Assembly: GCA_013348725.1 (NCBI GenBank)
Contig: CP054689.1
Location: 1,042,501 to 1,106,500 of the forward strand
DNA length: 64,000 nucleotides
From: Ectothiorhodospiraceae bacterium 2226
GTDB lineage: Bacteria > Pseudomonadota > Gammaproteobacteria > GCA-013348725
Reading direction: 5' to 3'
A program made the position numbers and the translations under genes. Each line of letters starts with the position of its first letter. The first letter of the stretch is position 1. Shown piece by piece: positions 9,023 through 54,410 of the stretch. A model generated the notes under the pieces. That model was not told the origin of the DNA and did no database searches. It worked only from the letters and a program-made list of their open reading frames with translations.

Positions 9023-9146
9023 CTCCCGACACAGGGAGACGACGCCGTGACCGCGGATCCCAAGCCGTGGATTACGCAGCCGATCGAAAACCACGCTTTT
9101 CGATCTGCGTGGCCTGAGACATCCAGGAGGGATGTATTCAGGCCTT
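9023..9146 (-). repeat. structured 3' repeat, locus 1 (single copy)
   Basis: One diverged copy of the hairpin repeat, read on the minus strand. It starts 3 bases after the stop of the dksA-like gene and points the same way. Stem 1 has the outer arms GGCCTGA/TCAGGCC and inner ACATCC/GGATGT; stem 2 is GATCGAAAA/TTTTCGATC around the GCGTGG loop. These arms differ from the other loci but still pair. The far end carries CTCCC/GGGAG instead of the usual GCGGCACA hairpin. Confidence 0.85.
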
Positions 9147-10920: not shown

Positions 10921-11034
10921 AGTCTGAATCCATCCATCCTGGATGGCTCAGACCACGCAAAGCGAAAAACGTAGTTTCCGCTCTGATTCGTGATCAACGG
11001 CTGGCGCCGTTGCTCACGGCGGCGGCTGTTAGAG
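10921..11034 (+). repeat. structured 3' repeat, locus 2, first copy
   Basis: Starts two bases after the moaC stop in the same direction. Stem 1: GTCTGA/TCAGAC around CCATCCA/TGGATGG. Stem 2 is poorly kept in this copy. Stem 3: AACGGC/GCCGTT. It ends in the linker CGGCGGCGGCTGTT that joins it to the next copy. Confidence 0.85.
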
Positions 11035-11153
11035 GTCTGAATCCATCCATCCTGGATGGCTCAGACCACGCGGAGCGAAAAGCGTGGTTTTCGCTCCGCT
11101 TCGTGATCAACGGCTTGCGCCGTCGATCACGGCGGCACATCCCTGTGCCGCGG
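11035..11153 (+). repeat. structured 3' repeat, locus 2, terminal copy
   Basis: Stem 2 is a perfect 12-base-pair arm, GCGGAGCGAAAA with TTTTCGCTCCGC, around GCGTGG. Stem 3 is GTGATC/GATCAC around ACGGC/GCCGT. The copy ends in the terminal hairpin GCGGCACA-TCCC-TGTGCCGC. The arms differ in sequence from loci 1 and 3 yet still pair. Confidence 0.87.
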
Positions 11154-11547: not shown

Positions 11548-11624
11548 TGGCGGAGCGGACGGGACTCGAACCCGCGACCCCCGGCGTGACAGGCCGGTAT
11601 TCTAACCAACTGAACTACCGCTCC
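11548..11624 (-). tRNA. tRNA-Asp (anticodon GTC)
   Basis: On the minus strand a 77-base tRNA runs from GGAGCGGTAGTTC to the encoded CCA. The acceptor stem GGAGCGG/CCGCTCC pairs fully, the anticodon loop is CTGTCAC with GTC, and the T arm contains GGTTCGAGTCC. It closely matches the known gammaproteobacterial tRNA-Asp. Confidence 0.97.
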
Positions 11625-11778
11625 GCTGTAGCGCTTCACCGAAACCTCGTTGAGCCGTGCCCGGTGAAGCCCGCTATTCTAGGCGAGCGGGCCGGCGGAC
11701 GCCAGTGCTTTCTAGGGAAGCTCTGACAGAAAACCGGGCGGGGCGTAATCAGACCTTCCCGCGCCCCGGCGGCGACGC

Positions 11779-13818
<2,040 letters not shown>

Positions 13819-13944
13819 CTGCGGATCGGTAAAGTTATAGGATAGGCGCCACGTTATCAAGGCGGGGTCCCAGCAGCATCTTGCCACCTCCGGTCAAACG
13901 CCTTACCCTTGACGGCTCTCCCACGCTTGCCGGAAGAACGCGCA

Positions 13945-47536: not shown

Positions 47537-47588
47537 AGCGTGACGGGGTTCAGCCACGCGTGCGCCGATCCTCGGCAAGATGCCGCTT

Positions 47589-48176
47589 ATGAGTGACGAT
47601 CTCGCCATGCGCAAAACCCGCCGCCCGAAACTCAAGGCCCCGTCGCCGCGCGCGCGCGACCTCCTGATCGCCGACCTGGAGGGCCGCCCACGGCGGCGCC
47701 GGCTGCGCCTCGGCACCCTGCTGTGGGCGTTGCTCACCGTGGTGCTGGCCGTTGGGGCGAGCGCACAGGTGATCCGCCACCAAGCGGGGCAGATCGCCGC
47801 GTGGTGGCCCGACAGCCGGCCGCTGCTGGAGCGGGCCTGCCTGACGCTGAACTGCACCCTGCCGCCGCAGCGTGACGTCGGCGCGATCGCCGTGTTGCGC
47901 CCCGAGATCCGCAAGCACCCCGAGGTCGAGAACGCGCTGCTGGTCACCGCGATGCTGCGCAACCAGGCGGGCTACGCGCAGCCGCTGCCCGCCCTCGAAC
48001 TCACCCTCTTCGACCTCACCGGACGGCCCGTGGCGAGTCGGCGCTTCACGCCCGCCACCTACCTGCGCGAAGGACGCGGCCACGCGCCCATGGCGGCCGA
48101 CGCGGAGGTCGACGTCGCCATCGAGATCATGGACCCGGGCCGCCGCGCGCACGGCTTCGAGATTGCGCTGTACTGA
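47589..48176 (+). CDS. DUF3426 domain protein lacking the usual N-terminal zinc ribbon
   Basis: About 195 residues with a single membrane span (LLWALLTVVLAVGASAQVI) and a periplasmic domain ending GFEIALY that matches DUF3426. Homologues generally begin with a CxxC zinc ribbon before the span; there is no such segment here and prmA ends 52 bases earlier. The start is uncertain among in-frame ATGs at 47580, 47589 and 47607. Four structured repeats follow its stop. Confidence 0.75.
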   Translation: MSDDLAMRKTRRPKLKAPSPRARDLLIADLEGRPRRRRLRLGTLLWALLTVVLAVGASAQVIRHQAGQIAAWWPDSRPLLERACLTLNCTLPPQRDVGAIAVLRPEIRKHPEVENALLVTAMLRNQAGYAQPLPALELTLFDLTGRPVASRRFTPATYLREGRGHAPMAADAEVDVAIEIMDPGRRAHGFEIALY

Positions 48177-48182
48177 TTTGAA

Positions 48183-48306
48183 GGTCTGAATCCATCCATC
48201 CCTGGATGGCTCAGACCACGCCAAGCGAAAAGCGTGGTTTCCGCTTGGCTTCGTGATCAACGGCCTGCGGCCGTCGCTCACGGCGACACATCCTGTGCCG
48301 CGGGAA
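48183..48306 (+). repeat. structured 3' repeat, locus 3, copy A (single unit with terminal hairpin)
   Basis: Begins six bases after the DUF3426 stop. Stem 1: GGTCTGA/TCAGACC with CCATCCA/TGGATGG inside. Stem 2: CCAAGCGAAAA with TTTCCGCTTGG (one mismatch). Stem 3: ACGGCC/GGCCGT. It ends with a CACATCCTGTGCCGCGG terminal element, so copy A looks like a complete one-unit array. Confidence 0.85.
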
Positions 48307-48422
48307 GGTCTGAATCCATCCATCCCTGGATGGCTCAGACCACACCAAGCGAAAAGCGTGGTTTCCGCTTGGCTTCGTGATCAACGGCCTGCGGCCGTCG
48401 CCCACGGCGGCGGCTGTTTGGC
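48307..48422 (+). repeat. structured 3' repeat, locus 3, copy B
   Basis: 116-base unit nearly identical to its neighbours. It ends in the linker CGGCGGCGGCTGTTT. In stem 1's flank the sequence is ACCACACC instead of ACCACGCC. Confidence 0.86.
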
Positions 48423-48538
48423 GGTCTGAATCCATCCATCCCTGGATGGCTCAGACCACGCCAAGCGAAAAGCGTGGTTTTCGCTTGGCTTCGTGATCAA
48501 CGGCCTGCGGCCGCCGCTCACGGCGGCGGCTGTTTGTC
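48423..48538 (+). repeat. structured 3' repeat, locus 3, copy C
   Basis: 116-base unit, with a perfect stem 2 (CCAAGCGAAAA/TTTTCGCTTGG, loop GCGTGG) and the linker CGGCGGCGGCTGTTT. Confidence 0.86.
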
Positions 48539-48660
48539 GGTCTGAATCCATCCATCCCTGGATGGCTCAGACCACGCCAAGCGAAAAGCGTGGTTTTCGC
48601 TTGGCTTCGTGATCAACGGCCTGCGGCCGTCGCCCACGGCGGCACATCCCTGTGCCGCGG
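48539..48660 (+). repeat. structured 3' repeat, locus 3, copy D (terminal)
   Basis: Stem 2 is perfect, as in copy C. The unit ends with the terminal hairpin GCGGCACA-TCCC-TGTGCCGC instead of the linker. Together the four copies and the 140 bases after them fill the whole gap between the DUF3426 gene and dusB. Confidence 0.86.
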
Positions 48661-48735
48661 TGCCATACCGCGCAATGGGCTCAACGATCCACCCCCCATC
48701 CGCGTTCCGCCGGCCCGCCGGGGTCGGGATGCGGC

Positions 48736-48765
48736 TTTACCCTCTCACGCCGCAGCGGGTATGAT
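48736..48765 (+). promoter_or_regulatory. candidate sigma-70 promoter of dusB-fis
   Basis: TTTACC (48736-48741), 18 bases, TATGAT (48760-48765), about 38 bases before the dusB ATG. The -10 box is close to consensus. This would separate dusB-fis transcription from the acc-prmA group. Confidence 0.5.
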
Positions 48766-48802
48766 GCAACGCTCGCTCCGTGTCACCACCCGAGCCGTTT
48801 CC

Positions 48803-49789
48803 ATGCGGATAGGCTGCTTTACGCCCAGTAACAATCTCGTCTTGGCGCCGATGGCCGGTGTCACCGATCGGCCCTTCCGGCAGCTGTGCAAGAGCCTGGG
48901 CGCCGGCATGGCCGTGTCCGAGATGGTCAGTTCCAACTCCCTGCTGTGGGGCAGCGAGAAGACCCTGCGCCGCGCCAATCATGCCGGCGAGACCGAACCG
49001 CGCTCGGTGCAGATCGCCGGCGCGGATCCGGCCATGATGGCCGAGGCCGCGCGCTTCAACGCCGACAACGGCGCCCAGATCATCGACATCAACATGGGCT
49101 GCCCCGCCAAAAAGGTCTGCAACGTCATGGCCGGCTCCGCGCTGCTGCGCGACGAGCCGCTGGTGGGTCGCATTCTGGAGGCGGTGGTCGGCGCCGTGGA
49201 GGTGCCGGTCACCCTCAAGATCCGCACCGGCTGGGACACGGCGCATCGCAACGCGGTCGAGGTCGCACGCATCGCCGAACAGGCCGGCGTGCAGGCACTC
49301 GCCATCCATGGCCGCACGCGCGCCTGCGCCTACACGGGCGAGGCAGAATATGCCACCATCGCCGCGGTGAAGCAGGCGGTGCGCATTCCGGTGATCGCCA
49401 ACGGCGACATCACCACGCCCGAGAAGGCCCAACGGGTGCTGGCCGAGACCGGGGCCGACGCGGTGATGATCGGCCGCGCCGCCCAGGGGCGGCCGTGGAT
49501 CTTCCGCGAGATCGATCACTACCTGCGCACCGGCGAGCACCTGCCGGAGCCGAGCCCCGCCGAGGTGCGCGAGATTCTCCTGGGGCACCTGGAGAATCTG
49601 TACGCCTTCTACGGCGAACATACGGGAGTGCGCGTGGCACGCAAGCACATCTCCTGGTACAGCAAGGGCCAGCCCCACGGCGGCGCCTTTCGCCAGGCGG
49701 TCAACCGCGTCGAAACCGTGAAGGAGCAATTGGCCATGACTCGGGAGTTCTTCGACCGCCTTGCCGAGGGCAAGGAGCTGGCCGCATGA
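48803..49789 (+). CDS. dusB: tRNA-dihydrouridine synthase B
   Basis: FMN enzyme that reduces U17-type uridines in tRNA. 328 residues from the ATG at 48803 (MRIGCFTPSNNLVLAPMAG): TDRPFR, catalytic cysteine in NMGCPAKKV, HGRTRACAYTG and MIGRAAQGRPW. It overlaps fis by ATGA, as in E. coli where dusB and fis are one operon. Confidence 0.96.
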   Translation: MRIGCFTPSNNLVLAPMAGVTDRPFRQLCKSLGAGMAVSEMVSSNSLLWGSEKTLRRANHAGETEPRSVQIAGADPAMMAEAARFNADNGAQIIDINMGCPAKKVCNVMAGSALLRDEPLVGRILEAVVGAVEVPVTLKIRTGWDTAHRNAVEVARIAEQAGVQALAIHGRTRACAYTGEAEYATIAAVKQAVRIPVIANGDITTPEKAQRVLAETGADAVMIGRAAQGRPWIFREIDHYLRTGEHLPEPSPAEVREILLGHLENLYAFYGEHTGVRVARKHISWYSKGQPHGGAFRQAVNRVETVKEQLAMTREFFDRLAEGKELAA

Positions 49790-54215: not shown

Positions 54216-54290
54216 GCGCGGCACAGGGATGTGCCGCCACGCTTTTCGCTTTGCGTGGTCTGAGCCGTCCAGGATGGACGGATTCAGACC
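54216..54290 (-). repeat. structured 3' repeat, locus 4, distal shortened copy
   Basis: On the minus strand: stem 1 GGTCTGA/TCAGACC with inner arms CCGTCCA/TGGACGG (a paired A-to-G and T-to-C change against CCATCCA/TGGATGG). Then CCACGC...GCGTGG is kept, but the right arm of stem 2 and stem 3 are missing and the copy runs directly into the terminal hairpin GCGGCACA-TCCC-TGTGCCGC. Confidence 0.83.
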
Positions 54291-54410
54291 TTCAAACAGC
54301 CGCCGCCGTGATCGACGGCCGCAGGCCGTGGGTCACGCAGCAAAGCGAAAACCACGCTTTTCGCGGCGCGTGGTCTGAGCCCTCCACGATGGATGGACGG
54401 GTTCAGACCT
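54291..54410 (-). repeat. structured 3' repeat, locus 4, copy next to the gene
   Basis: Starts 3 bases after the stop of the gene ending at 54413 and points the same way. Outer arms GGTCTGA/TCAGACC; inner stem less regular. Stem 2 core GCGAAAA/TTTTCGC around GCGTGG; stem 3 ACGGCC/GGCCGT. It ends in the linker GGCGGCGGCTGTTTG. Confidence 0.83.

Follow-up and report, generated by a model that had tools for sequence, protein, structure and literature searches.

A tandem array of four repeat units lies between the genes for a DUF3426 protein and a tRNA dihydrouridine synthase (Dus), at positions 48183-48658 of the window, by which we mean the whole 64-kb stretch of DNA that was analysed. Aligned as four 117-nt copies at 48177-48649, the repeats are 91-96% identical with a spacing of 124/116/116, and the array units are 111-120 bp long. 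Each unit carries hairpins 1-3, followed either by hairpin 4, which is the closing hairpin or cap, or by a linker. The array folds with z-scores of -8 to -9, and it matched no Rfam family at the gathering threshold. Gene context was taken from codon-scored calls; the dus gene beside the array was missed there and was identified on the plus strand by Pfam. The locus contains the following features, with bit scores from covariance model R1 unless stated otherwise.

47580-48176, plus strand: upstream gene, DUF3426 protein (E 3e-41); 6 nt separate the end of its stop codon from unit 1
48183-48301, plus strand: unit 1, hairpins 1-4, with a degenerate cap GCGACACATCCTGTGCCGC at 48283-48301; 114.7 bits
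48307-48417, plus strand: unit 2, hairpins 1-3, with linker GGCTGTTTGGC in place of hairpin 4; 86.9 bits
48423-48533, plus strand: unit 3, hairpins 1-3, followed by linker GGCTGTTTGTC; 97.3 bits
48539-48658, plus strand: unit 4, hairpins 1-4 with a complete cap; 126.5 bits
48405-48418 and 48521-48534, plus strand: exact copies of the linker CGGCGGCGGCTGTT
48639-48658, plus strand: closing hairpin, which is hairpin 4, GCGGCACATCCCTGTGCCGC
48179-48306, minus strand: full-length match to RsmW (RF02809) below threshold; 37.4 bits, gathering 52
48803-49780, plus strand: downstream gene, Dus (Pfam, E 8e-111); the end coordinate is the end of the scanned stretch

The same parts recur elsewhere in the window. 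Exact caps GCGGCACATCCCTGTGCCGC lie at 11132, 48639 and, on the minus strand, 54218, where 0.05 were expected and no shuffle contained three; exact linkers are found at 11017, 48405, 48521 and 54295 (minus strand). The repeat units, linkers and closing hairpins described in an earlier note on this DNA are thus genuine, and within the window they are far too frequent to be due to chance. The first copy of the array does already have a closing element, although in the degenerate form listed above. Three further loci carry the element.

10921-11151, plus strand: two-unit array, linker then cap, with the exact cap at 11132-11151
54218-54409, minus strand: two-unit array with a truncated second unit, linker then cap
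9026-9144, minus strand: single diverged copy; 82.6 bits

A mini-derivative of about 50 bp at 11713-11762 has the same ends (TAGGGAAGCTCTGA ... TCAGACCTTCCC) without hairpins 2-4, and similar mini-derivatives occur at genome positions 735462-735509 and 254032. Ordinary Rfam matches in the window were a TPP riboswitch (13727-13826, minus strand) and a tRNA (11551-11624, minus strand).

Caps, linkers and the growth of arrays

The earlier note had proposed a modular array in which linker units lie inside and a fixed terminal cap closes each array. This order holds at the three window loci and also at 524 kb and 1.398 Mb. The 2.96-Mb genome contains 62 unit matches by BLAST and about 95 by the covariance model, and junctions were counted by hand over 17 arrays of the whole genome, one very diverged array (549 kb) being omitted. 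Among the 33 inner junctions, 18 had a cap and 15 a linker, whereas the array ends comprised 13 caps, 4 truncated units and no linker (Fisher P = 0.004). The array at 13.8-14.5 kb runs linker, cap, cap, cap, linker, end cap, and the arrays at 2.569, 1.949, 1.594 and 2.150 Mb have a cap at every inner junction. When all arrays are considered, therefore, a cap that always comes last is refuted on the earlier note's own terms by the 18 inner caps, and nearly all single copies have the cap as well. As a general model the fixed terminal cap is very improbable, and what is left standing is the weaker rule that a linker is never at the end of an array. What was called the cap is the fourth of the element's five hairpins, not a terminal element, and few single copies lack it; the linker junctions look like a derived form. 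Linker units would be copies that have lost hairpin 4, and linker junctions at different loci have a common GCTGTTTGAA-like stretch.

The part of the earlier proposal that concerns growth by duplication fared better than its fixed cap. For 30 of 36 array units, the nearest relative was found within the same array, against a mean of 1.4 and a maximum of 7 under permutation, and unit identity was 0.95 within arrays versus 0.73 between arrays. Since units are most alike within their own array, the arrays grew locally, and their origin by local tandem duplication of hairpins 1-4 is supported. Capped junctions read ...CCGC-GGGAA-GGTCTGAAT, and in the full junction, CCGCGGGAAGGTCTGAAT, the element start (GGGAAGGTCTGAAT) directly follows the left arm of hairpin 5 (GGGAAGCTCTGAAT). 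Unequal exchange between the element start and the start of hairpin 5 fits these capped junctions, and arrays may thus grow when the direct repeats GGGAAGSTCTGAAT at those two starts recombine unequally. At 508768-509228, 549320-550125, 2799358-2799750 and 910580-910805, the same genome contains further tandem arrays that keep this architecture but differ widely in their stem sequences, and we read them as separate subfamilies in one genome.

Mobile-element identity and conservation of the hairpins

Full single copies have IS5-type ends (GGAAGSTCTGA) and 4-bp YTAR target duplications, in the layout YTAR-GGAAGGTCTGAAT..hairpin 1..hairpin 2..hairpin 3..hairpin 4..GGGAAGCTCTGAATNNATCAGAGCTTCCC-YTAR. 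The element is about 150-170 bp long, below the 300 bp used as a criterion for MITEs, and consists of four to five hairpins without coding capacity. An exact 4-bp duplication together with matching terminal repeats was found in 19 of 59 elements tested; 14 of these duplications were YTAR, mostly at the same offsets. Many copies in the window's genome are decayed or have no right end, and the copies look old. The carrier genomes G261, G124, G303 and G080 contain insertion sequences that have similar ends and are flanked by YTAR. Their transposases match NCBIfam transpos_IS5_4 with E values of 1e-96 or lower, and in G261 the sequence GGAAACGCTGA is used by both the insertion sequence and the MITE. 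In the stretches of the window's genome that were read, no autonomous partner was found, the two PF01609 matches being without element ends; these DDE_Tnp_1 matches were rejected as partners and belong to other elements. A partner of this kind is to be expected for an active MITE but may disappear afterwards. At genome positions 603893-606239, a DDE_Tnp_1 transposase gene is split by an apparent IS3-type insertion sequence. The element is very probably a non-autonomous MITE of IS5 type. Many copies start a few bases past a stop codon, largely because YTAR contains TAA/TAG.

The covariance model, based on a seed alignment of 24 elements that were drawn from several genera and span four hairpins, detected this architecture in 61 of the 369 genomes searched in the class (48 of 272 genera) and in 46 of 398 genomes of a phylum sample. 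Changes on both sides of a pair were seen in 33 of 46 pairs, with 140 such cells compared to 37 in shuffles, none of which reached as high, and one-sided stem changes were few. Sliding the structures reduced the paired share from 91% to about 35-44%. Computation thus shows that the hairpins are kept by compensatory change across genera. Between some genera the stems are almost wholly different (for example in G015), while the loops persist.

Mismatches in the stems were compared by strand. Read on the plus strand, A.C mismatches numbered 156 and G.T mismatches 124 (58 versus 54 when counted by columns), whereas nine tRNAs had 16 G.T and no A.C. Selection on a plus-strand RNA was rejected, since G.T equals A.C in the stems, and strong stem selection on the minus strand was rejected too, the excess there being only slight. 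With so little strand preference among the mismatches, the palindromes may be kept at the DNA level. Two side observations concern the hairpins themselves. Elements in an NC_groundwater MAG have extra nested hairpin modules inserted among the standard ones, which points to an exchange of modules, and an exact 20-mer hairpin core, GCGAAAAGCGTGGTTTTCGC, is the core of a repeat in Gastranaerophilales MAGs, inside a different surrounding palindrome.

Conserved minus-strand loops and co-occurrence with CsrA

Six GGA apical loops lie on the minus strand of the window array, which is antisense to both flanking genes.

48198-48203, minus strand: hairpin 1 loop of unit 1, AGGGAT
48322-48327, 48438-48443 and 48554-48559, minus strand: hairpin 1 loops of units 2-4, AGGGAT, as in unit 1
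48290-48294, minus strand: cap loop of unit 1, AGGAT
48646-48651, minus strand: hairpin 4 loop of unit 4, AGGGAT, an ANGGAN hexaloop

Over 48 loci of the window's genome, GGA apical loops numbered 98 on the minus strand and 4 on the plus strand, with 7.6 in shuffled sequence. On the minus strand the loop of hairpin 1 reads NGGAN and that of hairpin 4 C-ANGGAN-G, and GGA is retained in 119 of 131 hairpin 1 loops and at 104 of 131 hairpin 4 positions. Taking one sequence per genome from 36 genomes, the loop of hairpin 4, closed by C-G, had entropies of 0.19 (A), 1.29 (N), 0 (G), 0.19 (G), 0 (A) and 1.31 (N) bits, and the NGGAN of hairpin 1 showed a similar pattern (1.48, 0, 0.31, 0.18 and 0.97 bits); the mean for paired columns in the 36 genomes was 0.81. 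Hairpin 2 is conserved too, with two loop positions and an A/T stem that are invariant or nearly so. Its loop, which sits on an AAAA/TTTT stem and reads YCRCRY on the minus strand (RYGYGR on the plus strand), is preserved between genera; it lies at window positions 48455-48494, with the same form in all units, and fits no motif known to us.

The consensus for CsrA binding is RUACARGGAUGU, the repeat of CsrB is CAGGA(U/A/C)G, and RsmE recognizes an ANGGAN hexaloop (PMC7652899). Judged by their letters, the minus-strand loops of hairpins 1 and 4 match this CsrA/RsmE recognition loop, being variable exactly at the N positions. Within the literature collection consulted, searches on the motif sequences and on MITEs that bind CsrA turned up no previous description.

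CsrA was present in 24 of 25 carriers tested, some of them outside the class. In the phylum sample of 398 genomes, 44 of 46 carriers had CsrA, as did 176 of 352 non-carriers, and by genus the figures were 20 of 20 carrier and 79 of 193 non-carrier genera. The two carriers without CsrA are MAGs that are 69% and 74% complete. Because carriers cluster in about ten families, with many from one family, the association is weaker than the genome count suggests, and it is partly phylogenetic.

A predicted CsrA-binding module, its alternatives and related systems

On balance, we favour the prediction that the element is a mobile, amplifiable CsrA-binding RNA module. The window array would then be a locally amplified MITE copy whose internal cargo is the four adjacent hairpins. 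Its minus strand would be transcribed through a 3' UTR, by read-through or from a promoter of its own; a promoter scan of 48150-49100 returned zero minus-strand sites. Once transcribed, hairpins 4 and 1 would present ANGGAN/CAGGAUG loops to CsrA dimers, with two sites per single copy and up to about ten per tandem array, and the element would either titrate CsrA, as CsrB and RsmZ do, or mark the 3' end of the host transcript for CsrA. Binding of CsrA by the minus-strand RNA is likely, if finely balanced, and a physiological role as a CsrA sponge is plausible but on the improbable side. More tentatively than the binding itself, and with somewhat better prospects than the sponge role, the element may represent a class spread by IS5 across many families of Pseudomonadota, with a two-site CsrA-binding RNA as cargo and arrays that serve as home-grown CsrA sponges.

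The strongest alternative is an ordinary IS5-type MITE without RNA function, in which hairpins and loops derive from a common ancestor, are copied by transposition, and contain a GGA that is meaningless to the host. Its MITE anatomy is well supported, and MITEPsy1, which has nearly the same ends, is a known mobile MITE (PMC3189936). Gene context likewise gives it some support, because the orientation of elements relative to neighbouring genes (++ 14, +- 14, -- 9, -+ 8) shows that the GGA strand is not preferentially the sense strand. However, stems are replaced wholesale between genera while in the loop the letters A, G, G and A are retained and variation falls on the two N positions, and common descent alone does not single out those loop positions. 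Together with the co-occurrence of CsrA, this makes a MITE without RNA function unlikely.

Less probable still, and quite doubtful, is a bidirectional 3'-end element, in which intergenic hairpins act on both strands as terminators or mRNA stabilizers, as proposed for REP/BIME. Copies do begin a few nucleotides past stop codons, and convergent genes frequently flank them (14 of 46, compared with 10 of the window's 62 gene pairs); the mismatches are strand-symmetric, as a constraint on two strands predicts, and the folding z-scores of -8 to -9 agree. But the YTAR target largely accounts for the location past stop codons, no U-tract follows the array hairpins, where just two weak terminator-like matches were seen, and the conservation of the loops is left unexplained. 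Finally, maintenance of the palindromes by a mutational process (template switching or quasi-palindrome correction) instead of selection would fit the equal G.T and A.C mismatches and the few one-sided changes, as expected of a strand-neutral correction, but is hardly credible, since correction acts on stems, would not conserve loop letters, and gives no reason for GGA on the minus strand.

Csr/Rsm sponge RNAs vary widely between lineages and their origin is unclear, and a CsrA-binding mobile module would be a concrete, testable source. If the prediction is true, CsrB/RsmZ-like regulators could arise from mobile DNA, and selfish DNA would be linked to a global post-transcriptional regulator through CsrA loops, insertion at gene ends and tandem multiplication. 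The covariance model also annotates a widespread repeat that has no Rfam family of its own.

Among known RNAs, RsmW (RF02809) is the best Rfam match of the window array, over its full length and on the minus strand, at an E value of 1e-4 and with a score below gathering. The minus strand of the element aligns with RsmW as a GGA hairpin, two hairpins and a GGA hairpin. RsmW arises by processing of a 3' UTR and is a ligand of RsmA (PMC4950607); it differs in that it is not known as a mobile repeat. Membership of the RsmW family was rejected on the score of 37.4 bits against a gathering threshold of 52, and again in the reverse direction, where model R1 gave at most 15.2 bits on true RsmW loci; 20 element loci of other genera had no Rfam match at E 0.1. 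The true RsmW locus of one genome (G498) adjoins CTCTAAGGCTCTGAGTCAGAGCC, which resembles the end palindrome of the element, a resemblance too weak to claim a link. With the CsrB/RsmX/Y/Z class (Rfam clan CL00106), the element has in common loops that match the CsrA/RsmE consensus.

Among mobile elements, the closest likeness is to MITEPsy1/ISPsy2 (IS5 family) of Pseudomonas syringae, with a terminal repeat of GGAAGGTCTGAAAAAGCC, compared to GGAAGGTCTGAATAAATCC here, and a 4-nt target of CTAG or YTAA, compared to YTAR here (PMC3189936). MITEPsy1 is mobile, is about 100 nt long and was probably mobilized by an IS5-family transposase. The comparison covers ends, target and length, and the passages of that paper drawn on here mention neither hairpins as cargo nor tandem arrays nor a CsrA motif for MITEPsy1. 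BOX of pneumococcus and REP/BIME are likewise intergenic palindromic modular repeats with a variable number of internal copies. In contrast to these, the element described here has IS5-type ends and YTAR duplications, unlike the GTAG-tagged REP, and a loop motif and architecture that are common to several genera.
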